A DNA stretch of 64,000 bases from Acidobacteriota bacterium (GTDB taxonomy: Bacteria > Acidobacteriota > Thermoanaerobaculia > Thermoanaerobaculales > Thermoanaerobaculaceae): assembly GCA_016213675.1 (NCBI GenBank), contig JACQZW010000024.1:1-64000 (forward strand). The letters run 5' to 3'. The notes under the pieces were generated by a model. It saw only the letters and a program-made list of their open reading frames with translations, was not told the origin of the DNA and did no database searches. Positions 22,143 to 54,639 of this stretch are shown here, piece by piece (the first letter of the stretch is position 1; every line of letters starts with the position of its first letter). Position numbers and translations under genes: made by a program.

Positions 22143-22217
22143 GGGTAGTTCCTACCCAGCTCGCCGCGCCGCTCCCGGGTAGAAAGTGCGCTTCCCGGTG
22201 GGGTCCCGGAGGTCTAG
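22143..22217 (+). promoter_or_regulatory. Box A/B/CTAG promoter P1
   Basis: Box A GGGTAGTTCCTACCC at 22143-22157, box B GGGTAGAAAGTGCGCTTCCC at 22177-22196 and CTAG at 22214-22217. The gaps are 19 and 17 bp, identical in all eleven copies in this window. The ATG of the 27-residue gene is 37 nt beyond the CTAG start. Confidence 0.9.
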
Positions 22218-22250
22218 CGTGGAGGAGATGCCGAAAGTGAGGAACACGTC

Positions 22251-22334
22251 ATGAGCACTAGCACGCTGATCATCGTGATCGTTGTCCTGGTCCTTCTGTT
22301 TGGCGGTGGCGGCTTCTACTGGACCAGGCGGTAG
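22251..22334 (+). CDS. 27-residue membrane peptide
   Basis: A 27-residue protein starting MSTSTLIIVIVVLVLLFGGG and ending FYWTRR. It is one TM helix with a Gly run and a basic tail, like the very small DUF3309-type membrane proteins of stressed proteobacteria; the family assignment is tentative. It is credible despite its size because promoter P1 places its ATG at the same distance as in the other promoters and AAAGTGAGGAAC lies upstream. It appears to be the only product of P1. The role is unknown; membrane stress adaptation is inferred. Confidence 0.72.
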   Translation: MSTSTLIIVIVVLVLLFGGGGFYWTRR

Positions 22335-22827
22335 GGACCGCTGCTCCCGGATCGCGGCGTCAACTCCCATCGCAGTCCCGAGGGAGTTGCGCCCCGGTCC
22401 TCGTCGGTGCCGGCACGCTGCGCAGGCGAAGGCGGTGCGCGCCGAGGACACGGCCCTGAGGCGGATCGGTTTCCTGCCGCCTCGGGAATTCTCTTGACGT
22501 CCACGCTCTCATCAACTGGGGATGCTCGCAGGATCATGACTTCGTGGTCTGGAGGCACCGGAGTGTGTGACGGTCGATCCCTCACCCCGTCCCTCTCCCG
22601 GCGGGAGAGGGAGCCGAGCGTGACCGCGCCGGAGGTGCGTGGTGTCCCGTTCTTCTTCCTGACGGGGGCAGTCGTCACGGTTCGGCAGATCGCTCAGTAT
22701 CGGTTCCCTCTCCCGCCGGGAGAGGGTCAGGGTGAGGGACGGAGCCACCGACCCCTGATTCCCTCGAAGGTCCGAGCCTTCATCCGACGGGAGTGCTCGC
22801 GGGATCTCGAACCGCCTCGAGAAACGC
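22335..22827. other. Non-coding stretch with facing palindromic repeats
   Basis: No gene is seen. It holds a 32-bp repeat unit at 22580-22611 and its near-perfect inverted partner at 22706-22737. Confidence 0.6.
22580..22737. repeat. Inverted pair of REP-like units
   Basis: Two 32-bp units (each with a CTCTCCC/GGGAGAG hairpin) face each other across 94 bp. They are nearly identical to the direct pair at 431-462 and 605-636. The pair could form a long cruciform or mRNA hairpin between the P1 gene and the convergent cupin gene. Confidence 0.65.
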
Positions 22828-23214
22828 TCAGGCGTGCGACTTCTCGGCCGCTTCCGCCTCGGACTTCGTCTTGTGCACCGTTCCGTCCGGGTGGTTCGGC
22901 GGAGAGTAGATCGTGTAGAGCTTCAACGGCGCCGCTTTCGACGCGTTGATCACGTTGTGGTAGGTCCCCGCCGGCACCACGACGCCGTCGCCGGCGTGCA
23001 CTAGGCGTTCTTCCTTCTCGTTGAAGACGAACCTGGCGTCGCCCCCCTCGATGCGGAAGAACTGATCGACGTCGGCGTGGACCTCGTCGCCGATCTCCTC
23101 ACCCGGCTGAAGGCTCATCAGCACGAGCTGGGCGTGCGTGGAGGTGAAGAGCACCTGCCGGAAGTAGGTGTTCCTCAGCGCCAGCTCCTCGATCGCTCCA
23201 ACGTACCCGGTCAT
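22828..23214 (-). CDS. Cupin-domain protein
   Basis: A 128-residue single-domain cupin. Motif 1 includes GEEIGDEVHADVDQFFRIEGG, with possible metal ligands His46 and Asp48/Asp50; motif 2 includes PAGTYHNVIN with a His. The fold is clear but no substrate is indicated; similar proteins are often annotated as mannose-6-phosphate-isomerase-like cupins. It is the last gene of a likely operon running from the BON gene at 25717 to here and lies 45 nt from the CsbD gene. Confidence 0.85.
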   Translation of the reverse strand: MTGYVGAIEELALRNTYFRQVLFTSTHAQLVLMSLQPGEEIGDEVHADVDQFFRIEGGDARFVFNEKEERLVHAGDGVVVPAGTYHNVINASKAAPLKLYTIYSPPNHPDGTVHKTKSEAEAAEKSHA

Positions 23215-23259
23215 AGTCCTGCCCTCCCGTTCCTCGGAGCCATGCCCCGCACGAACCTG

Positions 23260-23463
23260 TCACTTCTTGCTTGCCTTGGCGTCTCTGCCGACGAGCTCGC
23301 CGACCTTGCGACGGGCCTTGCCGAGGCGCTCCTGGGCCGCGCCCTCGGCTTCCTGCCGAAAGCCCTCCCGCTCCATCGCGGTGTTGCCCGTGATGATGCC
23401 GACGATTTCCTTCCCCTGTCCCAGAAGCTTCTTCTCCTTGCCGCGTGCTTCCTGCTGGGTCAT
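23260..23463 (-). CDS. CsbD family stress protein
   Basis: A 67-residue hydrophilic protein of the CsbD family, general-stress proteins of unknown mechanism. KKLLGQGKEIVGIITGN and AQERLGKARRKVGELVG are typical. It is a paralogue of the gene at 52596-52799, with the same length and a shared GKARRKVGELV end. Both copies lie in transcription units headed by the box A/B promoter, which supports a stress role. GGAGACGCC precedes the ATG. Confidence 0.9.
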   Translation of the reverse strand: MTQQEARGKEKKLLGQGKEIVGIITGNTAMEREGFRQEAEGAAQERLGKARRKVGELVGRDAKASKK

Positions 23464-23504
23464 GGCGTCTCCTTCGACGGTCAGGGCCTGCGGTGCGCGG
23501 TCGG

Positions 23505-24518
23505 TCAGTACTCCGCGAGTCGCACCAGTTGCTTGCCGTGGTTCGCCCCCTGCAGCATGCCGATGAAGGCCTGCGGCGCGGCCTCGAGGCCCTGGGCGAT
23601 GTCCTCGCGGTACTTCAGCTTCCCTTGCGTGAGCCACCTGGCCAGGTGCTCGAGCGCCTCCGGGAACCGCCCGGCGTAGGCAGAGACCAGGAAGCCCTGC
23701 ACCTTCGCCTGCTTGACGACCAACTGGCCCAGCCATCGTGGGCCCCTCTCGGGCTTCTCGAGGTTGTACTGCGAGATTTGCCCGCAGACGGAGATCCGCG
23801 CCTTCGCGTTGATCAGTCGGATGACCGAGTCGGTGACGACCCCGCCCACGTTGTCGAAGTAGACGTCGATGCCGGCGGGGCAAAGCTCCCTGAGCTTGGC
23901 GTGGCTGTCGGCCGCGGTCCGGTAGTTGAACGCGGCGTCGAACCCGAGCTCGTCGAGCAGCCACGTGATCTTGGTGTCGGAGCCGGCCATGCCGACGACG
24001 CGGCACCCCTTGATCTTGGCGATCTGGCCGACGAGCATCCCGACCGCTCCCGCCGCCCCGGACACCACGACCGTCTCCCCTCGTCGGGGGGCGCAGATGT
24101 CCAGGAGGCCGAAGTACGCCGTGAGCCCCGGCATGCCGAGCACCCCGAGGGCCGTCGAGACCGGCGCGAGGTCCGGGTCGACCTTCCTCAGCGTGCGACC
24201 AGGAACCACCGCGTACTCCTGCCATCCCAGGATCCCCTCGACGGTGTCGCCGGGGAGAAACTCCGGGTCCATCGACTCCACCACCCGAGCGACCGCGCCG
24301 CCGGTCATGACTTCGCCGATGGCAAGCGGCCGGGCGTATGACTCGGCATCGCTCATCCGCCCCCGCATGTAGGGATCGAGCGACAGGTAGATCGACCGGA
24401 CCAGCACTTCGCCTGCGGCAGGCGAAGGCACAGGGGTGTAGACCAGGTGGAAGTCCGACACCTTTGGGAAACCCACCGGCCGGGAGGCCAATGTGATTTG
24501 CCTGTTCACTGTCGCCAT
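23505..24518 (-). CDS. NADP-dependent MDR-family oxidoreductase (CurA/LTB4-reductase type)
   Basis: A 337-residue zinc-independent medium-chain reductase. It has the SLDPYMRGRM signature near residues 46-55, the cofactor loop VVSGAAGAVGMLVGQIAKIKG, and YFDNVGG and ARISVCGQISQYN segments typical of curcumin reductase CurA and prostaglandin/leukotriene B4 reductases. The family reduces alpha,beta-unsaturated carbonyls with NADPH, so detoxifying reactive aldehydes or enones under stress is likely. It lies between the DUF3185 and CsbD genes in the P2 transcription unit. Confidence 0.92.
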   Translation of the reverse strand: MATVNRQITLASRPVGFPKVSDFHLVYTPVPSPAAGEVLVRSIYLSLDPYMRGRMSDAESYARPLAIGEVMTGGAVARVVESMDPEFLPGDTVEGILGWQEYAVVPGRTLRKVDPDLAPVSTALGVLGMPGLTAYFGLLDICAPRRGETVVVSGAAGAVGMLVGQIAKIKGCRVVGMAGSDTKITWLLDELGFDAAFNYRTAADSHAKLRELCPAGIDVYFDNVGGVVTDSVIRLINAKARISVCGQISQYNLEKPERGPRWLGQLVVKQAKVQGFLVSAYAGRFPEALEHLARWLTQGKLKYREDIAQGLEAAPQAFIGMLQGANHGKQLVRLAEY

Positions 24519-24622
24519 TGCGTCCGACGTCCTTCCTCGGCAATCCGTCTTCCGATCGGATCGCGCCCCCGGAGCGGTGTGGCCAGGCGCCTCGGGGGGG
24601 ACAGGCGCAGGGAAGTCGCCAC

Positions 24623-24841
24623 CTACGTCTTCGTGCGCACGAAGAGCAGGATCCCGCCGGCCACGATCGCGCCGACGCCGGCCCACACCGGGATGTTGAC
24701 CGTCTCCTTGTCCTTGATCGAGAACTCGAGCGGGCCGATCTTCGCGTCGTGGGTCGACTTGGTGTAGGTGATGCCGCCGTACACGAGCCCGACGGCACCG
24801 GCGGCGATCAACAGGATTGCGACGAGCTTGAGTGCGCTCAC
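24623..24841 (-). CDS. DUF3185-family small membrane protein
   Basis: A 72-residue protein with two TM helices (residues 5-25, LVAILLIAAGAVGLVYGGITY, and about 50-68, IPVWAGVGAIVAGGILLFV) joined by KSTHDAKIGPLEFSIKDKETV, which is characteristic of DUF3185. It starts at GTG (24841) with GAAGGAGGACAC upstream. Function is unknown; genes of this family are often found among stress genes, as here. Confidence 0.85.
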   Translation of the reverse strand: MSALKLVAILLIAAGAVGLVYGGITYTKSTHDAKIGPLEFSIKDKETVNIPVWAGVGAIVAGGILLFVRTKT

Positions 24842-24991
24842 GTGTCCTCCTTCGTTCGGGCTCCCGGATGGATCGGACGGGCTTTGCGGAACCTGCGGTC
24901 CGAGGCGACCGGGATGCGAGTCGAGGACCCGGCCGCCGTCGTTGACGGCCGGGACCTCCCCGCTGCATGTGCTGGCCAGGACGACGACCGC

Positions 24992-25141
24992 CTAGACGAC
25001 GCGTCGTCCGGAGATGAGTCTGATCACCAGGATGACCACCGCCACCACCAGCAGGATGTGGATCAGGCCGCCGGCCGTGGTCGAGGTGACCATGCCGAGC
25101 AACCACAAGACGAGGAGAATGACCAGGATTGTCCAGAGCAT
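24992..25141 (-). CDS. lmo0937-family small membrane protein
   Basis: A 49-residue protein with two hydrophobic helices (MLWTILVILLVLWLLGMVTS, then GGLIHILLVVAVVILVIRLI) and the basic end SGRRVV. It matches the known lmo0937/DUF5670 pattern (MLWTI..ILLVLWLLG, then a GG.IHILLV..... helix and R.I.GRR). GGAGGACTGCA gives a strong ribosome binding site. It lies 24 nt downstream of the BON lipoprotein gene. The family is small and of unknown function, linked to stress in other bacteria. Confidence 0.85.
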   Translation of the reverse strand: MLWTILVILLVLWLLGMVTSTTAGGLIHILLVVAVVILVIRLISGRRVV

Positions 25142-25165
25142 TGCAGTCCTCCAGTCGTGTCGGGC

Positions 25166-25717
25166 CTAGTACTTCATTTTCCCGACGAGGAGCTCGTTGT
25201 TGACGTCCTTGACGCCCGCGGTGCCGCGCGCGATGCGCTCGGCGTCGCTCTTGATCAGGTCGGAGCTGACGCGACCGAGGAGCGTCACGATCCCCTGCGA
25301 GGAGCTCACGTCGATGTCGCCGGCCTTGATCTCGGTGTTGGCGATGAGCTTCGACTTGACCTTCGAGCTGATCATGACGTCGTCGACCCAACTGCCGACC
25401 GTCCGCTCTCCGACGGTGAGGTCGTTCACCACACCGTGCACGCCCTCGGTGCGCCACGCGACGCGCCCGGCCTCTCGGCGAGCCTCCTCGGTGTCCACCA
25501 CGCCGGTCAGGTACACGACGCCTTCACGGGTCTGGACCTCGACCTGCCTCGCCTTGACCTTGTCGTTGGTTCCGAGTGACGCCTCGACCACCTTCGTGAT
25601 CCCCGAGTCGGCATCCCGCCTGCCCTCGGGCACCATCGACGAGGCGCACCCGGCGAGTGCGATCAACGCAACGCCCGCCAGCAGGGAGCCCGCCGCTGCA
25701 ACCAGTATTCGTTTCAT
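25166..25717 (-). CDS. OsmY-like lipoprotein with two BON domains
   Basis: A 183-residue lipoprotein (lipobox ALAGC, Cys24). Two BON domains follow at about 38-105 and 112-180, with VYLTGVVDTEEARREAGRVAW and VTLLGRVSSDLIKSDAERIA as core segments. OsmY-type proteins are periplasmic and induced by osmotic stress; BON domains bind phospholipids. It is the first gene after promoter P2 and likely starts a six-gene unit (BON, lmo0937, DUF3185, reductase, CsbD, cupin). The leader AGGAAAGGACGGTACCTC is nearly identical to that of the gene at 32069. Confidence 0.9.
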   Translation of the reverse strand: MKRILVAAAGSLLAGVALIALAGCASSMVPEGRRDADSGITKVVEASLGTNDKVKARQVEVQTREGVVYLTGVVDTEEARREAGRVAWRTEGVHGVVNDLTVGERTVGSWVDDVMISSKVKSKLIANTEIKAGDIDVSSSQGIVTLLGRVSSDLIKSDAERIARGTAGVKDVNNELLVGKMKY

Positions 25718-25863: not shown

Positions 25864-26679
25864 CTACGGTGTCGGTGTGAACGTCTGGGCCGGGCGCGGC
25901 ATGAGATAGGTGCTCCGCACGAACGGGCGCTCGGCGACGACGTAGAAGGCGTAGATGAGCAGGTGGCCGGCCGCGGCCGCGACGAGTCCGGGGAGGGAGC
26001 CGTATACGAGCGCGTAGCCGTACCCCTGGAGCTGCCCCACGGAGTACATGGGGTTGCGCATGAAGCGATAGGGCCCGCCGTCACACGCGGAGGCCAGTGG
26101 GCGCCCGAGGAACATGTCGCGGAAGTAGTACACGTCGACGCCCACGGTGAGCGTGGCCCACAGCTTGACCAGGAGGCCCACCACGAACAGCGCCACCCCC
26201 GTGGCGAGGACGAGCGACGCGGGCACCGCCTGCTCCAACCCTGGAACGTGCAACGCCGCCATGCAGCCGACCCCCAGCCCCTGGTTGAGGAACATCAGCC
26301 CGGCCAGGGTCTCGTACGCACGGAACGCGCGCTCCTCGCCGAACCGAGCGATCGCGCGGACGGGAAGCTCCGATCTGAGGATCACCGCGTTGCCGCCGTA
26401 GTAGAAGAGGAGCGTGAAGAGGAAGTAGGGCAGCGTGAGCCGCCAGTCGGCGCGGGCGATGAGCACGTGGGCGAGCGACACGGAGGCGACACTCCCGGCC
26501 ACCCACGCGGCGTTGAGGTGCTCGAGCCGCCAGCCGGCCATCGCGAACAGCGTCGACACGACTCGCAGCACGCCCCGGAGGATGCCGGGCCCCCGCGGGG
26601 CCGGTTGCCCTGGGCACTGGGTACCCGCGGGCACGTCGTGATGGTCGTGTACCGCGGCGCGTGCACGGAAGTCCCTCAT
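25864..26679 (-). CDS. PEMT/ICMT-family membrane methyltransferase
   Basis: A 271-residue protein with about seven hydrophobic helices. The C-terminal part has the family motifs of phospholipid/isoprenylcysteine methyltransferases: GGPYRFMRNPMYSVGQLQGYG, then a hydrophobic hairpin and AERPF. These bind SAM within the membrane and methylate lipids or isoprenyl groups. The substrate here is unknown; lipid head-group methylation is plausible. It is transcribed from P3, with an unusually long leader of about 110 nt, and is the only gene on that transcript. An in-frame stop just upstream makes ATG 26679 the first possible start. Confidence 0.8.
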   Translation of the reverse strand: MRDFRARAAVHDHHDVPAGTQCPGQPAPRGPGILRGVLRVVSTLFAMAGWRLEHLNAAWVAGSVASVSLAHVLIARADWRLTLPYFLFTLLFYYGGNAVILRSELPVRAIARFGEERAFRAYETLAGLMFLNQGLGVGCMAALHVPGLEQAVPASLVLATGVALFVVGLLVKLWATLTVGVDVYYFRDMFLGRPLASACDGGPYRFMRNPMYSVGQLQGYGYALVYGSLPGLVAAAAGHLLIYAFYVVAERPFVRSTYLMPRPAQTFTPTP

Positions 26680-28257: not shown

Positions 28258-28875
28258 CTACCCGTCGTCGCCCGCTCGCCCGGTGGACGTCTCCGGGAGG
28301 GGCGCGACCAGCGAGGCCCGCACGATGAACCTCTTCGGTGCGCGCCCAACGTACGAGAACGGAAAACAGGTCACGAGGCTGAGGACGGTGTCGTCGGTCG
28401 GGTCGAGGACCCGGATGTCCTTCGGACCCACGACCTCGGTCGAGTCCACGACGTACTCGTAGGACCGCACCGGCGTGACGATCCGGATCGTGTCCTTCGG
28501 ACGGATGCCCCGGAGCTCGCGGAAGAACGAGTCCCGGTGCCCGGCGAGCGCCATGTTGCCGCGCTCGCCGGGCAGTGCTGTACCGGTGATGTGGCCGACC
28601 GCGATGGCCAGCGTGGTGTCGTCGTCCCCCTCCCGCACGATCGCCGTGACGCCGATCCGCGGGATCTCGATTCGCCCGAGGACGAGCGGATCCGCGCTGA
28701 CTCTCGTGGCGGGATCACGCGTCGTGACAGGGTAAAAGGCGCGCTCCTGACGCGCCTGGTAAACCCTGGTATTCAAGGTCGCCGCGAGCGCCCAGCCGAG
28801 GAGCGAGAGCCCGATGATCACGAGGGCGATCGCACTCCGGCGGAGCCACCGCGCGGCGCAGGAGATCCTCGTCAC
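28258..28875 (-). CDS. Sortase (class D-like)
   Basis: A 205-residue sortase. TM anchor at about 14-32, then the sortase barrel with catalytic His113 (LAGHRDSFFREL), Cys170 (SLVTCFPF) and Arg182 (RAPKRFIVRA). The order and motifs fit class D/E single-substrate sortases. It overlaps the upstream gene by 4 nt, and that gene encodes a protein ending in an LPATAS sorting signal, so this is a dedicated transpeptidase/substrate pair. Sortases are uncommon in organisms with outer membranes. The acceptor is unknown. Expression is expected from P4. Confidence 0.92.
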   Translation of the reverse strand: MTRISCAARWLRRSAIALVIIGLSLLGWALAATLNTRVYQARQERAFYPVTTRDPATRVSADPLVLGRIEIPRIGVTAIVREGDDDTTLAIAVGHITGTALPGERGNMALAGHRDSFFRELRGIRPKDTIRIVTPVRSYEYVVDSTEVVGPKDIRVLDPTDDTVLSLVTCFPFSYVGRAPKRFIVRASLVAPLPETSTGRAGDDG

Positions 28876-29591
28876 GCCACCCGTCTCGCCAGCACGCCGA
28901 GACCGAGCGCGCCGAGGAGCGACAGGAGCCCGAGCCCCGCATACATCGGGACTCTGCTCGCGGTCGCGGGCAGGATCTTCTGATCGAGAGAGCTGTCGGC
29001 CACGACGACCGGCGCCGGAGCAGGTTCGGGGACCGGCGGCGCCTCAGCCTTCGCCATCTCGAACGGCTTCACTTCCTTCTCCGGTGTCACGATGACGAGG
29101 GGTGCGGTCTCGTACTCTGCGACCTTCACCTCGTCCGGAATCGCGACCACCGGCTCCTTGACCTGGGCGGCGAGCTCCATGGCACGTTTGGTGGGATAGA
29201 CGATGTCATGTCCGCCGCTGCCCGGCGTGTTGGCGGCGAACCAGGTCCTGAGCGCCCTGGGCTGGCCGGCGATGGCTGGGTAGTAGACGTAGCGACTCCA
29301 GTCGACCTGCACGCCCTGGGTTCCCTCCTGGTGGGGAACCGTGAGGACGTTGACGTACAACTTCGACAAGTCCGCGCTCCTCACCTGCAGAAGATCGCGG
29401 TTCCAATGGAGCGGAACGACCTTGATCTGGTAGCTGCCGGGCTGCAGGATCGTGCCTCCCACGTCCAGCGGCTCGGTTAAGGTGAAAATGGCGTCCTCGG
29501 GGGTCTCCACCGCGTTCGCAGTGCCGGTGAGGCCGAAGCCGAGCAGCATGGCGCACAGGCCCACGGTCAACCAACTCGTCAGTTTCTTCAT
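28872..29591 (-). CDS. Secreted sortase substrate with LPATAS signal
   Basis: A 239-residue secreted protein. It has a signal peptide (MKKLTSWLTVGLCAMLLGFG...NA, about residue 27), an ordered domain (about 30-130) beginning FTLTEPLDVGGTILQPGSYQIKV, a Pro-rich stretch (PPVPEPAPAPVV) and a C-terminal sorting signal: LPATAS at 207-212, a hydrophobic helix and ARRVA. This is the classical tripartite sortase signal. The start is set by the signal peptide and AGAGGTGCTGAG, though the frame is open upstream. It is expressed from P4 and coupled to the sortase by a 4-nt overlap. The function of the anchored domain is unknown. Confidence 0.88.
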   Translation of the reverse strand: MKKLTSWLTVGLCAMLLGFGLTGTANAVETPEDAIFTLTEPLDVGGTILQPGSYQIKVVPLHWNRDLLQVRSADLSKLYVNVLTVPHQEGTQGVQVDWSRYVYYPAIAGQPRALRTWFAANTPGSGGHDIVYPTKRAMELAAQVKEPVVAIPDEVKVAEYETAPLVIVTPEKEVKPFEMAKAEAPPVPEPAPAPVVVADSSLDQKILPATASRVPMYAGLGLLSLLGALGLGVLARRVA

Positions 29592-30080: not shown

Positions 30081-30635
30081 CTACTTCGTGTCGACGGAGA
30101 CGACCTTGATCACGCCCGCGACACCCTTGACGATCTTGTCCGCCTCCTGGCGGCGCGCGGCGGCGAACTCGCGGTTGAAGCCGAGCGTCACCACCCCGTC
30201 GGCGACCTCGGTGCCGATCCGGAATCCGTCAGTGCCCATCCTGTCGACCAGTGCGAGTCGAATCTTGGTCGCAAGGATGGCGTCCTTCAACTCCGCTTCG
30301 GCCTCGCCGGCTGCGACACCGGTCTTGTTGGGGTTCGCCACGCTGGCCTCGAGGAGGACGTCGTTCTTTACGCTCGACACGCCGGCGACCGACGTGGCGA
30401 TCGTCTCGGCGAGCTCGCGGGTCTCGCGCTTGTCGACCGTGCCCTTGAGGGTCACGGCTCCGGCGTTGGAGTCGACGTCCACGTGCATGCTGTCGGTGCC
30501 CAGCTTGTTGAGCAGGGCGAGCTTGACGTTCAGCGTGGTGATCCAGTCCTCCTTGGTGTCCGCGGCGTTCGCCGCGCCCACACCGATCAGCACCGCACCG
30601 ATCAGCGCCATCATCACGAGCGTCTTCAGTCTCAT
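30081..30635 (-). CDS. Periplasmic protein with two BON domains
   Basis: A 184-residue exported protein (signal peptide cleaved after ANAA, about residue 25). Two BON domains lie at about 35-98 and 118-182 (VTLKGTVDKRETRELAETIA; VTLGFNREFAAARRQEADKIV). This is a second OsmY-like protein in the island; unlike 25166-25717 it has no lipobox. It follows the DUF6600-type gene by 75 nt and probably shares promoter P5. GGGAGAAGGAC precedes the ATG. Confidence 0.88.
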   Translation of the reverse strand: MRLKTLVMMALIGAVLIGVGAANAADTKEDWITTLNVKLALLNKLGTDSMHVDVDSNAGAVTLKGTVDKRETRELAETIATSVAGVSSVKNDVLLEASVANPNKTGVAAGEAEAELKDAILATKIRLALVDRMGTDGFRIGTEVADGVVTLGFNREFAAARRQEADKIVKGVAGVIKVVSVDTK

Positions 30636-44600: not shown

Positions 44601-46994
44601 GCGCCGGAGGTTGTCGAGGATCTTCCACTGGCTGATCTGCGGGAGGCGGTTCTTCGCCCAGCCCTGGGGCGTGGGGACGAGCGGGAAGAGCCAGGCGAGG
44701 ATCTGCCAGTCGCCGCGCACCCAGCGGTGCTGCCGCCGCGCGTGGGCGAGGACGTTGGCCGGGTAGTCGTCCACCACCTCGACGTCGGAGACGAGCCCGG
44801 TGCGGGCGTACAGCCCCTCGAAGAGGTCGTGCGAGAGCAGCGTGTTCTCGGGGACGCGCCAGCCGACCGTCGCCTGGAAGGCATCGACGTCGTACAGCCC
44901 CTTGCCCGTGAAGATCCCCTCGCCGAACAGGTCCTGGTAGGTGTCCGAGACCGCCGTCGTGTAGGGATCGACGCCGGTGTGCCCGGCGTACAGCCGTGCG
45001 AAGAGCGACCCGGCAGCGCTCGCGAGGTTGACGCTCACGCGCGGCTGGAGGATGCCGTAGCCCTCGGTGACCCTGCGGAGGGCGGCGTCGACCACGGGCC
45101 GGTTGATCGGGTGCGCGATGATCCCGATCAGGGTCCTGGCGGCGCCCCGCGGCAACCGCGTGTCGGCGTCCAGGGTGAGGACGTAACGCACCTCCGGGAG
45201 GATCGAGAGGTCCCCGACCTTGACGGAGAAGCCGGTGTCGGTCGCGGAACGCAGCAGGCGGTTGAGCTCCTCGATCTTTCCCCGCTTGCGCTCCCAGCCC
45301 ATGAAGACGCCCTCGTTCGGGTTCCACTGCCGGTCGCGGTGGAACAGGTAGAAGCGGTCGTTCCCGTCGGGTGCGTGCCGGTGGTTGAGGGCCTCGATGC
45401 CGGTCACCGCGGCCGCGAGGATCTCGGTGTCACCGGCGACCGGGAGCGTCCGAGCGTCCCTGTAATCGCTGAGGAGCGCGAAGTGGATCCGGGGATCGAG
45501 GTTCCCGAGCGCCTGCACCTCGAGATGGGCCAGGAGCCGCCCGACCTCCTCCACGCTGCCGAGGAGCACGGGCACGACCACCAGCGTGCGGGCGCTCGCG
45601 GGGATCCCGTCGTCGAACTCGATGCGGGGAAGCCGGCGGGGCGGGACGAGCGCGGCCACCATGCGCTGCACGAGGAGCACCGCGAGCTCGCTCGCCGGGA
45701 GCAGCGCGAGCAGGGCCGCGACGGTCGCCAGCCCGGCGGCGCCCGCGGCGCCCGCGTAGGCGTACGCACCGAGGACGCCGGCGCCGGTCAGGAGGGCGAT
45801 GCCGCCGAGGTACGCCGCGGTCGCATGGGCGAACGCAAAGCGGCGCAGCCGCCCGGCGAGGCGCGGGCGGTACGCCACGTCGATCTCGAGGCCGCGCCGG
45901 CCCGGACCGATCAGGTGATGGCCGACATGCGCGGCCTTCTCGCCGATCCCGTCCCGCTCCGCGGCCCGGCGGGCGCTCTCGACCGTCCGCAGGGCCACGC
46001 GCACCTGCGCCTCGCCGGTCGGCTCGGCGAGCTCCTCGACGGCGTGCCGGTAGCGGTCGCGACTCGCGAAGTCCATCCGCGGATAGACCCCGGCCGGGTC
46101 CCGCCGCAGGATCTCCTCGACCGGGCTGACCTGCTCGACGAAGCGGCTCCAGTCGAGCGTCGCGCAGAGCCGCAGGCTCGTCACCGTGTTGCCGGTGGAG
46201 ACCTGGTCGGTGGCCTGGCGCTGGCTCTCGGAGCGAACGGCATCCTCGGGCGTCGTCCCTCGCGCGGCGAGTGCCTGCGCCACCGCGGCCGCGAGCGGGG
46301 AGACGAGGGGGTCGTGCTCGTGCATCCGCTGACGGAGCTGCGCCACGAAGGCGCTCGGGAGCGGGTCGGGCAGCGGGCCGGGGGCATCGCCGCGCTCGAG
46401 CCGGGCGAACGCGACGTCGGCCTCGAGGCGTGCCGCTCGCCCTTCGAGGATCCCGTCGGTCAGGAGCCTGAGGTTCTCAAGGAGGGCGAGCTTGAGCATG
46501 CTGGGCCACGCCCACAGCTCGCCGATCGTCAGCGGCGCCACCGTCTGGAAAGCGAGGACGAACCGGGTGAGCCGCTCCGCGTCGACCCGCCCGTCGCCGT
46601 GCCGGATCAGCTCGAGCGCCATCGCGTGGATGCGCGCCTTGCCAGAGAACTCGCGGGCCGCGAGCTTCGGCAGCTTCCGGTAGTACCCGGTGGGGAGGTC
46701 GTGCCGGACGGCGCGCGCCTCCGACTCGACGAGGTGGAAGTTGTCGAGCAGCCACTCGGCGGCCGGCGGAACGGCGACGCCCCGGTGGACGTCGTCAGCG
46801 AGCGAGCGGTACGCCGCGTTCAGGGCGCGGATGTTCGCTTCGAGTCGTGGCGAGACGTCGTGCCCGCCCGCGCGTGAGGCAGGCAGGAGGGTGAAGACGG
46901 CGGCGAGCGTCCTCGCGCGTTCCTCGAGGCCCTCGGGGCTCAGGAGCTCGCCCCTGAGAGGCTCGGCTCCCTCGGCGCGACGGCGTCCGAACAG
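38631..46994 (-). CDS. Cyclic beta-1,2-glucan synthase-like protein (NdvB/Cgs type) with GH94 domain
   Basis: A 2787-residue membrane protein. It begins with an [20 protein letters not shown] region; TM helices (about 390-450) precede a GT84 glycosyltransferase domain (VVVPVLLGS, then [12 protein letters not shown]), followed by more TM helices. A glycoamylase-like domain ([24 protein letters not shown]), two GT36-type beta domains ([38 protein letters not shown]) and a C-terminal GH94 phosphorylase-like domain ([22 protein letters not shown]) follow. This is the known layout for periplasmic cyclic glucan synthesis, an osmoprotective polymer. The start is CTG 46994 behind AGGAGG: the frame upstream hits TGA at 47000, and residues before the first ATG (46622) are clearly conserved sequence. 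It lies 22 nt after the P8 gene. Confidence 0.9.
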
Positions 46995-47016: not shown

Positions 47017-47700
47017 TCAAGGTCGCGGCGACGCCGCGGCGTTCGGCTCGGCCAATCCCACGTCAGCGACCCAGGCCACGGCGTCGTCGTGCACGGGCGC
47101 GCGCACGCCGCCGTCCGGCTCCGGGAGGGACGCCTGCTTCACGCCCATCTCAACCCGGCCGGCATCCAGTTCGTTCCCGAGCGCGTCCAGGCGCGCGCCC
47201 TGCTCGGAAAGCCAAACGACGACAGCCTCGTTTCCGGCGTCTTTGGCCGGTGGGCCGGGATTCGGAGTCTCCAAGGCACGACTCGGGACGCCCGCCAGGC
47301 TCGCGATCCTCCGCCCCTGCTCGGCGCTCCTGTCGACCAGGTCGGCGAGGTCGAACGCGCGCTCGCGCAGCGCCTCCTGACGCGCCCTCAGCTCCGCGTT
47401 GTCGCGCACGACCGAGTCGATGCCACGACGCGCCAGGGCCCGCCCCGGCTCCACGGAGAACGCACCGGCGACGGCGAAGGCGAGCAGGGAGACGACGCCG
47501 ATAGTTCCCAACACCCGCCGAAAGCCAGGAGGGCCGAGCGCGAGGTGACGGAATCTCCCGTCACTGCCCTGCCACTGCACCTCCAGGAGCCGACGGTGGC
47601 CCGCACCTGCACGACCGGGAGGATCGGTTCGTGTCGCAGCACGTCGTGCCCCACGCGCACGGCATGCGGCGGAGAACCCACCCATTGCTGCGAGCTTCAT
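47017..47700 (-). CDS. Single-TM protein with coiled coil, M23-like N-terminal part
   Basis: A 227-residue protein. A short basic N-terminus, FRHLALGPPGFRRVLGTIGVVSLLAFAVAGAF (TM about 60-80) and a coiled coil (ELRARQEALRERAFDLADLVDRSAEQGRRIASLAGVP) resemble the N-terminal half of LytM/M23 peptidases, but the metallopeptidase domain is missing. The remainder (EAVVVWLSEQGARLDALGNELD) is helical and the end is low complexity. It may be a scaffold or a decayed M23 protein. It is the first gene after promoter P8, and the glucan synthase follows by 22 nt, suggesting a joint role in envelope glucan production. GGAAGGGAAGGTGCCCC precedes the ATG. Confidence 0.75.
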   Translation of the reverse strand: MKLAAMGGFSAACRARGARRAATRTDPPGRAGAGHRRLLEVQWQGSDGRFRHLALGPPGFRRVLGTIGVVSLLAFAVAGAFSVEPGRALARRGIDSVVRDNAELRARQEALRERAFDLADLVDRSAEQGRRIASLAGVPSRALETPNPGPPAKDAGNEAVVVWLSEQGARLDALGNELDAGRVEMGVKQASLPEPDGGVRAPVHDDAVAWVADVGLAEPNAAASPRP

Positions 47701-47734: not shown

Positions 47735-47809
47735 TGCACCGCCGTCGCCCCATCCGTGAAGCGCACTTTCTACCCGAAAGAGAGGTCGTGGACTAGGTAC
47801 AAATTACCC
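47735..47809 (-). promoter_or_regulatory. Box A/B promoter P8
   Basis: On the minus strand: box A GGGTAATTTGTACCT (47809-47795) and box B GGGTAGAAAGTGCGCTTCAC (47775-47756). The CTAG position holds TGCA (47738-47735). Spacing of 19 and 17 bp and the 38-nt distance to the ATG are conserved. Confidence 0.83.
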
Positions 47810-48461
47810 GGCCGGGGCCCGACCCGGCGCCGCCGGGTTCGGCGCCGCCGCCGAAGAAGCTCTCGAGGTCGAGATCCCCCGAGCGCAGCCGGCGCGGCCG
47901 CCGGGTGAGGTAGTTGTAGCGCACACCGAAGGAGAGCAGCGCCCGCTCGAGGAGCCGGCGGCCGCGGTAGAGGCGCGACATCACGGTACCGAGCGGGATC
48001 GACAGGATCGCGGCGACCTCCTTGTAGGTGTGATCCTCGAGGTCGGCGAGGAGAATCACGAGACGATAGGCGCGGGGAAGCGCCGCCAGCGCCCGCTGCA
48101 CCTCGCTGTCGAGGGAGGCCTCGACGGCCTCGTCCTCCGGGGTGCGGGCCACCGAGCCGTGCACCGGCGCGAGCGCCGACTCCAGGGTCTCCTCGACCTG
48201 CCCGAAGGTCACCAGGGCCGGCGTCGTCTGGCGGCGTCGATAGTCGTTGATGAAGGTGTTCTTGAGGATCCTGAACAGCCACGCCCTGAGGTTGGTGCCG
48301 GGGCGGAACGTCCCGTAGTGGCGGTAGGCCCTGAGGTAGGTCTCCTGGAGCAGGTCCTCCGCGCCGTCCGCGTTGCGGGTGAGGCGAAGCGCCGTCCTGC
48401 GCAGTTGCGCCTGGTAGGGCAGCTCGCCGAGGTCGAAGTCCCAGGATCCTGGCTCGCTCAC
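47793..48461 (-). CDS. ECF RNA polymerase sigma factor with its own box A/B promoter
   Basis: A 222-residue ECF sigma factor. Region 2 (YQAQLRRTALRLTRNADGAEDLLQETYLRAYRHYGTFRPGTNLRAWLFRILKNTFINDYR) and region 4 (ALAALPRAYRLVILLADLEDHTYKEVAAILSIPLGTVMSRLYRGRRLL) are intact. A ~40-residue C-terminal tail rich in Gly/Arg follows. GTG 48461 is preferred over ATG 48491 because CAGGAGGACGAC precedes it and the ATG would lie almost at the expected transcript start. No anti-sigma gene adjoins it. Its gene carries promoter P9, so it either reads or is controlled by the regulon signal. It is divergent from the histidine kinase. Confidence 0.92.
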   Translation of the reverse strand: MSEPGSWDFDLGELPYQAQLRRTALRLTRNADGAEDLLQETYLRAYRHYGTFRPGTNLRAWLFRILKNTFINDYRRRQTTPALVTFGQVEETLESALAPVHGSVARTPEDEAVEASLDSEVQRALAALPRAYRLVILLADLEDHTYKEVAAILSIPLGTVMSRLYRGRRLLERALLSFGVRYNYLTRRPRRLRSGDLDLESFFGGGAEPGGAGSGPGRVICT

Positions 48462-48736: not shown

Positions 48737-50896
48737 ATGAGGAAGGCGCTGAAGCCGCATGGGAAGGCGGACGACCGGAGCCGCACGGTCGCCGCGCTGT
48801 TGGTGGCGGCGAGCGCGGTGGCGGAGAACCGGGCGTTCGCCGACGCGACGCGGGCGATCCTGGCGGCATGCAAGAGGATGCTCGGCGCCGGCGCCGGCCT
48901 CGTCGGCGTACGCGTGCCGGGCGGCAAGGAGCTCGAGGTCGCCCTCGTCGATCCCGGCGGCCTTGCGCTCGACCCTGCTGCCGGGTTTCCTGCGGTGCTG
49001 CGCCGTCTGAGCGCTCGTGCCTCCAAGCTCGGCCGGCCCGTCTTCACCAACGACCTGTCGAAGTCCGCGGCGAACGTGTCCCCCGCGACCCGCGGTCGCC
49101 GAGTGCTCCCGCAGAACGCGCTCCTCGCACCGGTCGTCATCGCCGGCGAGGTCGCCGGGCTCGTCGGCCTGCTCGACAAGCCGGGGGGCTTCTCGGCGGC
49201 CGACTGTCGGCTCGCCGCGGTGTTCGCCGAGATGACGGCCGTGGCGATGCTCAACAGCCGCAAGGTCGGCCGCCTCCAGGAGGACCGGAACGGCCTCGCC
49301 AGGGAGGTGCGCGAGGGCGCCACGCACCTGCGCCGGGCCGAGGCGCAGTTCAGGACGCTGGTCGAGAACCTGCCCGACATCATCGCCCGCTTCGACGCGG
49401 ACCTGCGCCACCTCTACGTCAGCCCCTCGGTCCAGCGCGTCACCGGACGCCACCCGCGGGACTTCGTGGGCAGGACGAACCGCGAACTGGGGATGTCGCC
49501 CGAGCTCGTCGAGGTGTGGGACACCGCCCTGAAGAGGGTCTTCGCGACCGGACAGCCCGGGAGGATCGAGTTCGCCTTCCCGGCCCAGGACGGGACGAGG
49601 TACTTCGACTGCCGGCTGGTCCCGGAGCTCGGGCCGCGGGGCGCGATCCCGTCCGTGCTCAGCGTCGCCCGCGACGTGACCGACAGGTGGCTCGCGTTCG
49701 AGGCCGAGCGGCACGCCCGCTTTGTCGCCGACGCCCTCCGCGAGGCGACCGTGGTGCTCACCCGCAGCCTCGACCGCGGAACGGTGCTGGTGACCCTGCT
49801 CGACCGCCTGCGCCGGATGGTCCCCTTCGACCGCGCCCGCGTCATGCTCCTCGAGGCGGAGTCGCGGCTCTCGGTCCGGGCCATCTTCGACGGCGACCAC
49901 GTCGTTCCGATGACCCCCGAGGTGCGATCGGAGTTCGATCCGACCGATCATCCGATCGTCCACGGCATCCTGAAGACCGGTACGGCCGTGCTGATCTCCG
50001 ACGTCCGCGCGCACCCCGACTGGAGCCTCCCGATGGACCGCACGTCCGAGGCGAGCTGGATGGGGGTCCCGCTGTTCGCCCGTGGCGACGTGGCCGGGCT
50101 GTTCTCGCTCTCCAAGCGGCAGCCCGGCTACTTCAAGGAGGAGCACGTCAAGCTGGCCGAGGCGATGTCGTCCCAGGCCTCGGTCGCCGTCGAGAACGCG
50201 ATCCTCTTCGAGCAGATGCAGGCCTCCACGGTGCGGATGAAGGCGCTCTCTCGCCGTCTCGTGGAGGTTCAGGAGAGCGAGCGGCGCAGCATCGCCCGCG
50301 AGCTTCACGACGAGGCGGGTCAGGCGCTGGTGTCGCTGCGAATCGGGCTCCGGCTGCTCGAGCGGGAGATCGGCGAGGGCGGCAGTGTCACCGGGCTGGT
50401 GGCGGACCTCATGCAGAGGACCGATGCCGTCATCGACGGCCTGCACCGTCTGGCCGCGGACCTGCGGCCGGCGAGCCTCGACTACCTGGGGCTCGAGGCG
50501 GCGCTCCGCCAGTACTCGCGCTCGGTCGGGTCCAAGTTCGGGCTGGTGGTCCGCTTCAAGGCGCGCGGGTTCACCAGCGAGCGGCTCCCGGCGACGGTGG
50601 AGACCGCGCTGTACCGGGTGGTCCAGGAGGCGATCACCAACGTCGTGCGCCACGCCCGCGCGACCCAGGTCGACGTGCTGGCGGAACGTCGCGGCGACCG
50701 CGTGCACGTGATGGTCGAGGACGACGGCGTCGGCTTCGAGCCGGAGCTGGTCCAGCGCGGTGATCACTTCGGCCTGCTGGGCCTGAGGGAGCGAGCCGAG
50801 TCCCTGGGCGGGGTCCTGACCGTGGAGAGCGCGCCGGGGGCGGGCACGACCGTGGTGGTGGAGGTGCCGAGTGCCGATCCGCATTCTGATCGCTGA
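48737..50896 (+). CDS. GAF-PAS-GAF sensor histidine kinase (NarX/DevS-like)
   Basis: A 719-residue kinase without TM segments. It has GAF 1 (about 20-170), PAS (about 205-320; FRTLVENLPDIIARFDADLRHLYVS), GAF 2 (about 345-495), a HisKA_3 dimerisation domain with phospho-acceptor His524 (RRSIARELHDEAGQAL), and an HATPase domain (about 610-715; EAITNVVRHARA, VEDDGVGF, GLLGLRERAESLGG). This is the NarX/DevS class that pairs with NarL/LuxR regulators. The response regulator start lies 26 nt inside this gene. GAGGAGAGGCCC supports ATG 48737 over 48722. A soluble GAF sensor suggests a cytoplasmic or diffusible signal. Confidence 0.93.
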   Translation: MRKALKPHGKADDRSRTVAALLVAASAVAENRAFADATRAILAACKRMLGAGAGLVGVRVPGGKELEVALVDPGGLALDPAAGFPAVLRRLSARASKLGRPVFTNDLSKSAANVSPATRGRRVLPQNALLAPVVIAGEVAGLVGLLDKPGGFSAADCRLAAVFAEMTAVAMLNSRKVGRLQEDRNGLAREVREGATHLRRAEAQFRTLVENLPDIIARFDADLRHLYVSPSVQRVTGRHPRDFVGRTNRELGMSPELVEVWDTALKRVFATGQPGRIEFAFPAQDGTRYFDCRLVPELGPRGAIPSVLSVARDVTDRWLAFEAERHARFVADALREATVVLTRSLDRGTVLVTLLDRLRRMVPFDRARVMLLEAESRLSVRAIFDGDHVVPMTPEVRSEFDPTDHPIVHGILKTGTAVLISDVRAHPDWSLPMDRTSEASWMGVPLFARGDVAGLFSLSKRQPGYFKEEHVKLAEAMSSQASVAVENAILFEQMQASTVRMKALSRRLVEVQESERRSIARELHDEAGQALVSLRIGLRLLEREIGEGGSVTGLVADLMQRTDAVIDGLHRLAADLRPASLDYLGLEAALRQYSRSVGSKFGLVVRFKARGFTSERLPATVETALYRVVQEAITNVVRHARATQVDVLAERRGDRVHVMVEDDGVGFEPELVQRGDHFGLLGLRERAESLGGVLTVESAPGAGTTVVVEVPSADPHSDR

Positions 50897-51509
50897 CGAC
50901 CACGCGGTGGTCCGTTCCGGCCTCAAGGCGTTGCTCCGCGCCGACCCCGATCTCGAGGTCGTCGGCGAGGCGGGAGATGGGGTGGAGGTGGTGCGCCTGG
51001 TCGAGGAGTTGCACCCCGACGTGGTCCTGCTCGACATCACCATGCCCCCCGACAACGGCATCGAGACCGCCAAGCGACTGAAAGCGCAGCACCCGGAGCT
51101 GATCGTGCTGTTCCTCACCATGCACGAGGACGAGACCCTGCTGCACGAGGCGTTGCGCGCGGGCGCCGCGGGCTACGTGATCAAGCGGGCCGAGGAGTCC
51201 GAGATCATCGAGGCGATCCGGGCGGCGAACCGGGGCGACATCTACGTGCACCCCGCGATGACCCGCGCGCTCCTCCACCAGCCCGTCACGACAGAGCACC
51301 GGCGCGGCGTCCAGGCCATCGCGCTCACCCGTCGCGAGCTCGACGTCCTGCGCCTCCTCGCCAAGGGGAACACCAACCGGCAGATCGCTGCCCTGCTCAG
51401 CCTGTCGATGCGCACCGTCGAGAACCACCGTGCCAACCTGATGGGCAAGCTCGGGCTGGTCAGCCGCGTCGAGCTGGTGAACTACGCCGAGGAGCACAAG
51501 CTCCTCTAG
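50871..51509 (+). CDS. NarL/LuxR-family response regulator
   Basis: A 212-residue regulator starting at GTG 50871 and overlapping the kinase gene by 26 nt. The receiver domain has the acidic pair Asp9/Asp10, phospho-acceptor Asp55 (VVLLDITMP) and conserved LTMHED and GYVIKRA segments. The C-terminal LuxR helix-turn-helix (about 148-210; LTRRELDVLRLLAKGNTNRQIAALLSLSMRTVENHRANLMGKL) is intact. Regulators of this class bind short inverted repeats, and box A (GGGTAG-N3-CTACCC) has that form, so it is the leading candidate for the regulator of the eleven promoters. One of them (P10) lies just downstream. Confidence 0.94.
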   Translation: MPIRILIADDHAVVRSGLKALLRADPDLEVVGEAGDGVEVVRLVEELHPDVVLLDITMPPDNGIETAKRLKAQHPELIVLFLTMHEDETLLHEALRAGAAGYVIKRAEESEIIEAIRAANRGDIYVHPAMTRALLHQPVTTEHRRGVQAIALTRRELDVLRLLAKGNTNRQIAALLSLSMRTVENHRANLMGKLGLVSRVELVNYAEEHKLL

Positions 51510-51553
51510 CCCGCACTGCTGCGCAAGATCTCGAGGGGTCCCGAGCTCCGGCC

Positions 51554-51628
51554 GCGTACTTTCTACCTGAGTCGCGGCGTCGCTCCCGGGTAGAAAGTGC
51601 GCTTCACGGGGGTGCGCCGCGGGGCTAG
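51554..51628 (+). promoter_or_regulatory. Box A/B/CTAG promoter P10
   Basis: Box A GCGTACTTTCTACCT (51554-51568), box B GGGTAGAAAGTGCGCTTCAC (51588-51607) and CTAG (51625-51628); gaps of 19 and 17 bp. The ATG at 51664 is 39 nt from the CTAG start. Confidence 0.9.
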
Positions 51629-51663
51629 GTTTGAGATGCCTCATCAGGAAAGGCAGGTGTTCC

Positions 51664-52521: not shown

Positions 52522-52595
52522 CCCATTCGGAACGGTCGTGCCCGACGCGCACGGCCAAAACCGGGATCCCCGGGATCCCAACTGGAGAGATCATC

Positions 52596-52799
52596 ATGCA
52601 GAAGCAGGAAGTGCGCGGCAAGGTGAAGAAGCTCAAGGGGCGGGTGAAGGAAGCCGCCGGCATCGTCACCAACAATCCCAAGCTGGAGCGGGAGGGTTCC
52701 CGGCAGCGGACCGAGGGCGCGGTCCAGGAGAGCCTCGGCAAGGCGCGCCGGAAGGTCGGCGAACTCGTCAGCGGAATCGCCAAGGCGATCAAGAAGTAG
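52596..52799 (+). CDS. CsbD family stress protein (second copy)
   Basis: A 67-residue hydrophilic CsbD-family protein with GKVKKLKGRVKEAAGIVTNN and QESLGKARRKVGELVSG. It is a paralogue of 23260-23463. Helical, charge-rich and lacking Cys, it is typical of this general-stress family of unknown mechanism. It lies 74 nt after the P10 gene and is probably on the same transcript. Confidence 0.9.
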   Translation: MQKQEVRGKVKKLKGRVKEAAGIVTNNPKLEREGSRQRTEGAVQESLGKARRKVGELVSGIAKAIKK

Positions 52800-52916
52800 G
52801 GCGGGCCGGATCGCGTTCGACTCTCTCCGCCGCTCGGTGAGACGCGGGCTCGAGAGAGCCGTCGGACAAGAACTTCGACCTCGCTGTCCTGGATGTGCAC
52901 GGGAAAGGAACCTGCC

Positions 52917-53195
52917 ATGCCAACGACCGTACCGGCATTCCTGCTTCTCCTCCTGATCGCGGCCGTCTGCGGCGCCCTCGGGAAGGCCATCGCGGGCAAC
53001 GTCCGCGGCGGGCTCGTCGTCTCGATCGCCCTCGGCTTCATCGGGTCTCTCGTCGGGCCCTGGGTCGCCCGGATGCTCAAGCTCCCGGAGCCGTTCATGG
53101 TCAACATCGGCGGGTATCCGTTCCCCGTCCTGTGGTCGATCATCGGCGCCGCTCTGTTCGTGGCGATCATTCACCTGTTTTCCCGACGGTGGTGA
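52917..53195 (+). CDS. GlsB/YeaQ/YmgE-like small membrane protein
   Basis: A 92-residue membrane protein with three helices (PAFLLLLLIAAVCGALGKAI, GGLVVSIALGFIGSLVGPWVA and PVLWSIIGAALFVAIIHLF). The gap between helices and the GLVVSIALGFIGSLVG segment match the transglycosylase-associated (YeaQ/YmgE/GlsB) family, which is stress-induced in other bacteria. GGGAAAGGAACCTGCC supports the ATG at 52917 over upstream starts. It sits between CsbD and dodecin. Confidence 0.82.
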   Translation: MPTTVPAFLLLLLIAAVCGALGKAIAGNVRGGLVVSIALGFIGSLVGPWVARMLKLPEPFMVNIGGYPFPVLWSIIGAALFVAIIHLFSRRW

Positions 53196-53344
53196 GGACG
53201 GCGTCGCCGGCCGAGTCACCGGCCCGCACGGACGGCCGCTGCGGGTTTCGAGTCGGTTGCACCTTCATCGCGGGCAGTCCTGGCCTCGAGCCGCTCGGGG
53301 AGCTGCCCGGAGTTACGTGACCACGAACCAGCAAGGAGGACGTC

Positions 53345-53548
53345 ATGTCAGTCGCGAAGGTCTCGGAAATCAGCGCCACCTCGACGAAGAGCTTTCAGGA
53401 TGCCATCGAAGAGGGGATCGACAGGGCGAACAAGACGCTGCGCAACGTGCGAAGCGCCTGGATCAAGGAGCAGCAGGTCAGGGTGAAGAAGGGCTCCATC
53501 ACGGAGTTTCAGGTCAACATGATGGTCACCTTCGTCATCGACGACTAG
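53345..53548 (+). CDS. Dodecin family flavoprotein
   Basis: A 67-residue protein of the dodecin family, which forms hollow dodecamers storing flavin (or CoA). Typical features are VAKVSEISATSTKSFQDAIEEGIDRANKTLRNVRSAWIKEQ, containing the flavin-stacking Trp, and the C-terminal strand EFQVNMMVTFVIDD. AGCAAGGAGGACGTC gives a strong ribosome binding site. It is likely a flavin buffer or protectant under stress; co-location with CsbD and YeaQ-like genes supports that. Confidence 0.93.
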   Translation: MSVAKVSEISATSTKSFQDAIEEGIDRANKTLRNVRSAWIKEQQVRVKKGSITEFQVNMMVTFVIDD

Positions 53549-53589
53549 CGCCGAGGGAGTGCCGCGATCCCGGACTGGCAGGGGCGGGC

Positions 53590-54495
53590 ATGGAGATGAT
53601 CGGTCAGGCGCATGCGACCGGCGCCAACGGCACGTCGATCGCCTGGAGCGAGATGGGTGAAGGCGATCCCCTGGTCCTCATCCACGGGTTTCAGCAGTCG
53701 CATCGCACCTGGCGCCGCGTCGCACCGCTGCTTGCGGAGGAGTTCCGCCTGCTGATGCCCGACCTGCCCGGTCACGGCCTCTCCGGACGGCCGGACGCGC
53801 CATACACGCTGACGTGGTACGCGAAGACGGTTTCGGCGTGGATGGACGCGATCGGCGTTCGGAGGGCCCACGTTTGCGGGCATTCGTTCGGCGGCGGCAT
53901 CGCGCAGTGGATGCTGCTCGACCACCGGAAGAGGGTGGATCGTCTCGCGCTCGTGGCGCCGGGCGGGCTCGGGCTCGAGTGCGGCATCGGTCTTCGGCTC
54001 GCGACGTTCCCGGTGCTCGGGCGCGCGCTCACGCCGTTCGTGATCCGCCACGTCCTCCCGCTCGTCGTCCGGCACGCCTCCTCGACCTTCGCCCACACGG
54101 AGGCCGGCGAGGTCGAGCGGGCCCAGGCGATGAACCGCATTCCCGGCACCGACCGTGCATTCCAGCGCTCGGTCGAGGGCGTCATCAACTTCTCCGGCCA
54201 GCACGTGCGGACGTCGGACCGCGTCCAGGAGGTCGCGTCGCTCCCGGCCATCGCCATGTTCTGGGGTGAGCGCGATCCGATCATCCCGGTCAGGCACGGG
54301 CAGGGCGCCTTCGAGGGCTCCACCGATGTCACGCTGACGACCTACCCGGAATCGGGGCACTTCCCGCATCTCGACCTGCCGCTCGTCTTCGCCCGCGACC
54401 TCACTGCGTTCCTCCGCAACCGGCTCCGCCCCGCGGCACGGATTCCCCGCGCAGGGCGGCGGAGGAGGCCGAAGGACCGCCTCGGAGCTGCCTGA
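53590..54495 (+). CDS. Alpha/beta hydrolase
   Basis: A 301-residue alpha/beta-hydrolase-fold enzyme. Motifs: oxyanion region LVLIHGFQQS, nucleophile Ser in GHSFGGG, an acid in GERDPIIPV and catalytic His in ESGHFPHLD. It resembles epoxide hydrolase/haloperoxidase/MhpC-type enzymes; the substrate cannot be told. It has an Arg/Pro-rich tail. It lies 41 nt after dodecin, so is probably the last gene of the P10 unit. The frame is open upstream, but ATG 53590 gives the normal N-terminus. Confidence 0.9.
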   Translation: MEMIGQAHATGANGTSIAWSEMGEGDPLVLIHGFQQSHRTWRRVAPLLAEEFRLLMPDLPGHGLSGRPDAPYTLTWYAKTVSAWMDAIGVRRAHVCGHSFGGGIAQWMLLDHRKRVDRLALVAPGGLGLECGIGLRLATFPVLGRALTPFVIRHVLPLVVRHASSTFAHTEAGEVERAQAMNRIPGTDRAFQRSVEGVINFSGQHVRTSDRVQEVASLPAIAMFWGERDPIIPVRHGQGAFEGSTDVTLTTYPESGHFPHLDLPLVFARDLTAFLRNRLRPAARIPRAGRRRRPKDRLGAA

Positions 54496-54564
54496 GCCGG
54501 GCGGCGCGCCTGACGCCCGGCCGCCGCCAGGCCGCGGGCCGACTACGGAGGATGGCCGGCAGCC

Positions 54565-54639
54565 GCGTAGTTCCTACCTGGTCCGAGCCTCCGCGTTCGG
54601 GTAGAAAGTGCTCTTCCTGGAAAGGGATACGAGGGCTAG
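54565..54639 (+). promoter_or_regulatory. Box A/B/CTAG promoter P11
   Basis: Box A GCGTAGTTCCTACCT (54565-54579), box B GGGTAGAAAGTGCTCTTCCT (54599-54618) and CTAG (54636-54639), with 19- and 17-bp gaps. The start codon is 37 nt from the CTAG start. Confidence 0.9.

Follow-up and report, generated by a model that had tools for sequence, protein, structure and literature searches.

Eleven 75-bp sites in a 64,000-nucleotide stretch from the genome of an uncultured member of the Acidobacteriota (assembly GCA_016213675.1, contig JACQZW010000024.1, positions 1 to 64,000; hereafter the window) are, in our reading, activator-dependent promoters of one regulon, which would be governed by a sensor histidine kinase and a NarL/LuxR-type response regulator encoded among them and transcribed by a sigma70-type RNA polymerase. 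We give this reading a probability of roughly 0.8. The regulon is a new one of a known kind, with a logic like that of DosR/DevR. The evidence lies in a motif of conserved geometry, the similarity of its two boxes, a sigma70-type core, the co-occurrence and linkage of the motif with the kinase and regulator genes, and the recurrence of target genes across families.

Eleven sites in one island

All eleven sites were found at the coordinates and on the strands given in a preliminary description made from the sequence alone, and its layout of box A (15 bp), 19 bp, box B, 17 bp and a terminal CTAG, or one of the variants CCAG, TGCA and CTAC, was borne out. They are listed here with coordinates extended to the end of the -10 hexamer discussed below.

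P1, 22143-22220, + strand: box A 22143-22157, box B 22177-22191, -35 slot TTCCCG 22192-22197, -10 TAGCGT 22215-22220; target, open reading frame (ORF) 22251-22334 for a 27-residue membrane peptide
P2, 25748-25825, - strand: -35 slot TTACCC, -10 TAGGTT; target, the BON gene 25166-25717 with those that follow it
P3, 26788-26865, - strand: -35 slot ATAAAG, -10 TAGGTT; target, PEMT-family methyltransferase 25864-26679
P4, 29811-29888, - strand: -35 slot TTCCCC, -10 TAGCTT; target, putative sortase substrate and sortase
P5, 32100-32177, - strand: -35 slot TTCCCG, -10 TAGTTT; targets, DUF6600 protein 30711-32069 and BON protein 30081-30635
P6, 35192-35269, - strand: -35 slot TTCCCG, -10 TAGATT; target, PAS-GGDEF-EAL protein 32645-35095
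P7, 38012-38089, - strand: -35 slot TTTCCG, -10 CAGACT; target, 183-residue membrane-anchored protein 37413-37964
P8, 47732-47809, - strand: -35 slot TTCACG, weak -10 GCACCA or CACCAT, overlapping the 3' end of the sigma factor gene below P9; targets, 227-residue protein 47017-47700, then cyclic glucan synthase 38631-46622
P9, 48490-48567, - strand: -35 slot TTGCCG, -10 TACGGT; target, extracytoplasmic function (ECF) sigma factor 47793-48461
P10, 51554-51631, + strand: -35 slot TTCACG, -10 TAGGTT; target, 285-residue protein
P11, 54565-54642, + strand: -35 slot TTCCTG, -10 TAGATT; target, 213-residue membrane protein 54673-55314

A sequence-only profile built from these sites (82 positions) and run against the whole genome (4.97 Mb) recovered exactly eleven full-length copies (E 1.9e-21 to 4.4e-13; next match E 0.04), all of them in one island of 32-33 kb; the assembly, in 95 contigs, is 92% complete and may therefore lack further sites. 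The weight matrix, itself derived from the eleven sites that it scores, gives them 60-102, and the second-best place in the window, at 4.2, is the same site on the opposite strand. Exact matches to the box-A pattern number four in the genome, all inside the window, and the reversed pattern has none. When two mismatches are allowed, the box-B pattern finds ten window sites at zero or one mismatch and nine scattered places at two, about the number returned by the reversed-pattern control. Ten of the eleven sites are intergenic, the exception being P8, which shares 17 bp with the end of the ECF sigma gene. About 90 related sites occur in other genomes; together with relatives across the class, the window sites make up a collection of 103, from which a first set of 69 was used for some of the counts below. 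Box centres lie 34 bp apart in the family of this genome, f1 (19-bp gap), so that the claim of a spacing that never varies holds for this genome and family, but not for others, where the gap is 17, 18, 19 or 20 bp.

A sigma70-type core preceded by two probable copies of one operator

In the alignment of the eleven sites, position 78 is T in ten, and positions 73-78 therefore read TAGnTT. Because this T belongs to the motif, the terminal CTAG, present as described, is no separate element; it is the start of a -10 hexamer, and TAGnTT fits the TAnnnT pattern that marks a sigma70-type -10. A poor -35 element, TTCCCG or close to it, occupies positions 50-55, 17 bp 5' of the -10. The pattern extends to the whole collection: TAnnnT stands 16-18 bp from the -35 slot in 93 of the 103 sites (control offsets: mean 0.75, maximum 5), the slot begins with TT in 87, and the commonest -10 hexamers are TAGATT (22), TAGGTT (18) and TACGTT (7). 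The first start codon falls most often 30-31 nt past the -10 hexamer (28 of 101 automatic calls) and is commonly preceded by the Shine-Dalgarno-like GGAAAGGA; transcription would start at about site position 85. In the first set, EcfG-, SigB- and sigma54-type elements were each found in 0 of 69 sites. These observations agree with the earlier view of the sites as promoters. In P8 and two of its orthologues (L128, L138) the -10 departs from the canonical form, reading GCACCA, or CACCAT at a spacing of 18 bp; the orthologue in G007 has TACGTT.

The consensus of box A is palindromic (GGGTAGTTTCTACC), of the type GGGTAG-N3-CTACCC. The reverse complement of box B, GCGCACTTTCTACCC, matches that consensus, and none of 2000 column shuffles matched as well; judged from this likeness, box B is the same operator as box A, inverted and weaker, with its weak half facing the -35 element. 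In the promoters of ice-binding-protein genes in relatives, box B itself is a full palindrome (L131, GGTAGAAACTACGG; also written AGGTAGAAACTACGG). The possibility that boxes A and B serve two different factors is disfavoured by the same match. We also set aside box A as the stem of an RNA hairpin, as the predicted transcript begins downstream of both boxes and changes in box A, such as GGGTGG...CTACCC and GGGTAA...GTACCT, leave the stem mispaired.

Relative to the predicted start, the centre of box A lies at about -77 and that of box B (position 42) at about -43. Class II activators bind near -42, at or over the -35 element, and box B abuts that element, with TAnnnT at 17 +/- 1 bp in 93 of the 103 sites. 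We propose that the kinase senses a signal, probably one of stress, and phosphorylates the response regulator, a dimer of which would bind both operator copies, box A and the inverted, weaker box B. Since box B abuts a poor, TTCCCG-like -35, the regulator bound there might act as a class II activator, recruiting primary sigma70-type polymerase, which would then recognise the TAnnnT hexamer 17 bp downstream.

The candidate regulator and its kinase

Two adjacent genes encode the proposed sensor and activator.

48737-50896, + strand: sensor histidine kinase, 719 residues, GAF-PAS-GAF-HisKA_3-HATPase by Pfam; its orthologues adjoin the regulator in site-bearing genomes
50871-51509, + strand: NarL/LuxR-type response regulator, 212 residues, receiver and GerE helix-turn-helix domains; proposed activator of P1-P11

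The regulator has the receiver-GerE architecture (PF00072, 2.4e-29; PF00196, 1.6e-20), and D55, T83 and K106 are present in its receiver alignment. We surveyed 149 genomes of the class Thermoanaerobaculia, counting orthologues at an identity of at least 65% and bearing in mind that members of the same family do not amount to independent observations. The regulator is present in 13 genomes, the motif in 16 and both in 12, so that the motif occurs in 12 of 13 genomes with the regulator versus 4 of 136 others (Fisher p 1.5e-13, kinship ignored). A phylogenetic test of regulator against motif showed clustering and no single origin, with at least three label changes. Sites stand on the contig of the regulator, within about 10 kb, in six families of the class (f1, f7, f12, f13, f14, f18). 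Outside the class, G150 carries a regulator of 55-56% identity with sites within a few kilobases on the same contig and the same -35/-10 spacing. Kinase and regulator are, moreover, the only window genes common to all seven related groups of regulator loci. This co-occurrence and linkage make the response regulator, with its GAF/HisKA_3 kinase, the best candidate for control of the sites, as had been suggested for the protein at 50871, and a single dedicated activator most likely serves both boxes. Regulator paralogues of 60% identity (in G010, in G013 and as a second copy in this genome, G000:C28) have no sites nearby, nor is the motif found near the Chloroflexi and Firmicutes relatives of 44-51% identity.

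Several points weigh against this assignment. Four genomes, all fragmented into 320-610 contigs, carry the motif without a regulator orthologue (G083, G084, G085, G109); G139 has the regulator, and the motif was not found there; and in G015 the sites lie off the contig of the regulator. In the window the kinase-regulator operon has no site in front of it, so that autoregulation was not seen. The seven groups of loci were picked for carrying the regulator, and the comparison excludes other linked genes only. Some of the sites from different genomes are orthologues of each other and amount to repeats, and P8 is without a clear TAnnnT.

The input side of the kinase varies: GAF-PAS-GAF in f1 and f7, receiver-PAS-GAF in G086, GAF-GAF in G076 and G078, and a single GAF in G096 and G136. 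The kinase core and usually one adjacent GAF domain are conserved, the last GAF being the only input domain present in nearly all kinases. Because the input domains differ, the signal probably differs between lineages and the output stays. Exchange of the sensor half is seen in the orthologues at six loci (L278, L292, L284, L286, L295, L264). Between families in which the regulator keeps about 79% identity, a paralogue of the ECF sigma factor, present at 60-66% throughout the family of the window, drops to about 48-58%; this contrast hints at horizontal transfer of the system. In G015 (L153, C86, 6114-8023), two tandem regulator genes are 66% and 58% identical to that of the window, the second lying in a longer ORF.

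Alternative explanations

It is unlikely, in our view, that the boxes are bound by some other regulator, unlinked to them, and that the kinase and regulator are passengers of a mobile stress island. The four motif-bearing genomes lacking the regulator and the confinement of the window's sites to one island would fit such a history, but linkage and co-occurrence hold across seven families and two classes despite differing target sets, no other window gene is common to all groups of regulator loci, and in G007 and G014 the regulator is kept with sites spread over many contigs. Slightly less probable still is repression of these promoters by the regulator, alone or combined with activation. Box B, next to the -35 element, is a place where a repressor might work too; however, poor -35 hexamers with a kept -10 and kept spacing fit activator-dependent promoters, and the DevR arrangement likewise puts the proximal box over the -35 and a helper box upstream of it (PMC3029386).

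The preliminary description had the ECF sigma factor at 47793 reading the end of box B and CTAG, and we reject this, with or without an activator, as very improbable. The gene does lie inside the cluster with its own upstream site, P9, yet an orthologue of 77% identity is confined to G007 and G011, is missing from G004 (11 sites) and survives as a 64-residue remnant in G014, which has 19 sites, the most of any genome; the sites thus persist without this orthologue. Nearly every genome of the family, site-free ones included, has a paralogue of 64-66%, the core is TAnnnT at 17 bp (93/103), and the ECF-type AAC/CGT pair occurs in 2 of 69 sites. The gene is best read as a target, through P9, and not as the reader of the motif. 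The remnant (L128, G014:C64, about 11789-12005) lies between two promoter sites and has an apparent in-frame internal deletion, which may be a natural loss or an assembly error. That the sites are a dispersed repeat, a mobile element or recently copied unit of no regulatory meaning, is the least credible alternative, with hardly any probability. All eleven copies do fall within 33 kb of one genome; against it, the spacers have diverged with boxes and spacing kept, as the preliminary description had already argued, the sites face gene starts (the ATG most often 30-31 nt past the -10), and they recur before the same gene families in other families.

Comparison with known systems and significance

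The closest parallel to the proposed two-component control is DevR of Mycobacterium tuberculosis, whose promoters have two or more boxes, of which the one nearest the start overlaps the -35 element (PMC3029386). Both systems have a NarL-family regulator, a HisKA_3 kinase with GAF domains and GGG...CCC palindromic boxes with the proximal one at -35, and DevR ranks in the top five of the solved structures that match the regulator (1.7e-34). They differ in box spacing (34 bp centre to centre here), in phylum and in targets, as no universal stress protein occurs among the first downstream genes scanned. The Dev box is GGGACT...AGTCCC, in contrast to GGGTAG-N3-CTACCC (consensus GGGTAGTTTCTACC) here. 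Because operator sequence and targets differ in these ways, we regard the system as one that works like DevR/DosR and do not file it as a member. In Streptomyces coelicolor, OsdKR likewise combines a DevR-type regulator and a palindromic site, AGGGCCGATCGGCCCT, with a cluster of stress genes surrounding those for the regulator (PMC5069765), but its site sequence is different and its targets are universal stress proteins and nitrate reductase. The best solved-structure match to the regulator is VraR (3.2e-36), followed by NarL, and NCBIfam equivalogs, that of NarL for one, match without any reaching its cut-off; NarL, VraR and NreC belong to the same protein family and have other sites and targets. 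We take the Firmicutes relatives of the regulator to resemble NreC. Targets of the EcfG/PhyR general stress response of Alphaproteobacteria include BON, CsbD, PRC-barrel and small membrane proteins. The kinds of targets overlap with those found here, but the GGAAC-N15-18-CGTT element is absent (0/69) and no requirement for an alternative sigma factor was seen.

It could be, at about even odds, that in parts of the Acidobacteriota a two-component system runs general-stress-type genes (BON, CsbD, dodecin, PRC-barrel, small membrane proteins, envelope glucan, sortase) directly through the housekeeping sigma factor, in place of an alternative one, with sensor input exchanged between lineages and operator, regulator and core targets kept. 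Searches of an open-access library yielded nothing relevant for the motif string or for stress regulons of Acidobacteria, and we met no description of such a regulon in the phylum. The proposed regulon supplies the phylum with a regulator and its operator, together with a promoter architecture and a set of targets, and offers hints to the function of the uncharacterised products of P7, P8, P10 and P11. Also, the 103 natural operators and several regulator orthologues form a series in which DNA-site choice by NarL-type proteins can be studied, and a parallel to DosR in a distant phylum raises the question of whether this promoter logic is ancient or convergent.

Target genes

The following genes lie downstream of the sites; several of them are also named in the site list.

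25166-25717, - strand: BON-domain lipoprotein; its kind is the most frequent target across genomes (14 sites)
24992-25141, - strand: lmo0937/DUF5670 small membrane protein
23505-24518, - strand: zinc-type oxidoreductase (ADH_N_2)
23260-23463, - strand: CsbD-like protein (Pfam 38.3 bits, just under the 40-bit cut-off)
25864-26679, - strand: PEMT-family methyltransferase
28872-29591, - strand: putative sortase substrate, with the tail LPATA, a hydrophobic stretch and RR
28258-28821, - strand: sortase, closest to class D
30711-32069 and 30081-30635, - strand: DUF6600 protein and BON protein
32645-35095, - strand: PAS-GGDEF-EAL protein
38631-46622, - strand: cyclic beta-glucan synthase-type protein with GH94 domains
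47793-48461, - strand: ECF sigma factor, with P9 upstream
52596-52799, 52893-53195 and 53345-53548, + strand: CsbD, YeaQ/Transgly_assoc and dodecin

P10 would drive an operon of the 285-residue protein followed by the CsbD, YeaQ-like, dodecin and hydrolase genes. The view of these genes as a stress and envelope set is supported, with two amendments: the supposed DUF3185 protein (24623-24841) has no Pfam or NCBIfam match, and of the reported sortase pair one member is a sortase, its partner being a likely substrate. Across families, the recurrent first downstream genes encode BON proteins, the 227-residue protein of the P8 type (7 sites), ice-binding-like proteins and PEMT-family methyltransferases (6 each), the P10 and P11 proteins and a group including the cyclic glucan synthase-type protein (5 each), GGDEF-EAL proteins, ECF sigma factors and OmpA-like outer-membrane barrels (4 each), CsbD, DUF6600, PRC-barrel, phosphoglucomutase and sortase-substrate-like proteins (3 each) and lmo0937/DUF5670 (2). 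The gene for the LPATA-hydrophobic-RR protein directly precedes that for the class-D-like sortase, in a Gram-negative phylum. The 27-residue membrane peptide below P1 reads MSTSTLIIVIVVLVLLFGGGGFYWTRR, and similar tiny ORFs lie under sites in G007, G011, G014 and G015.

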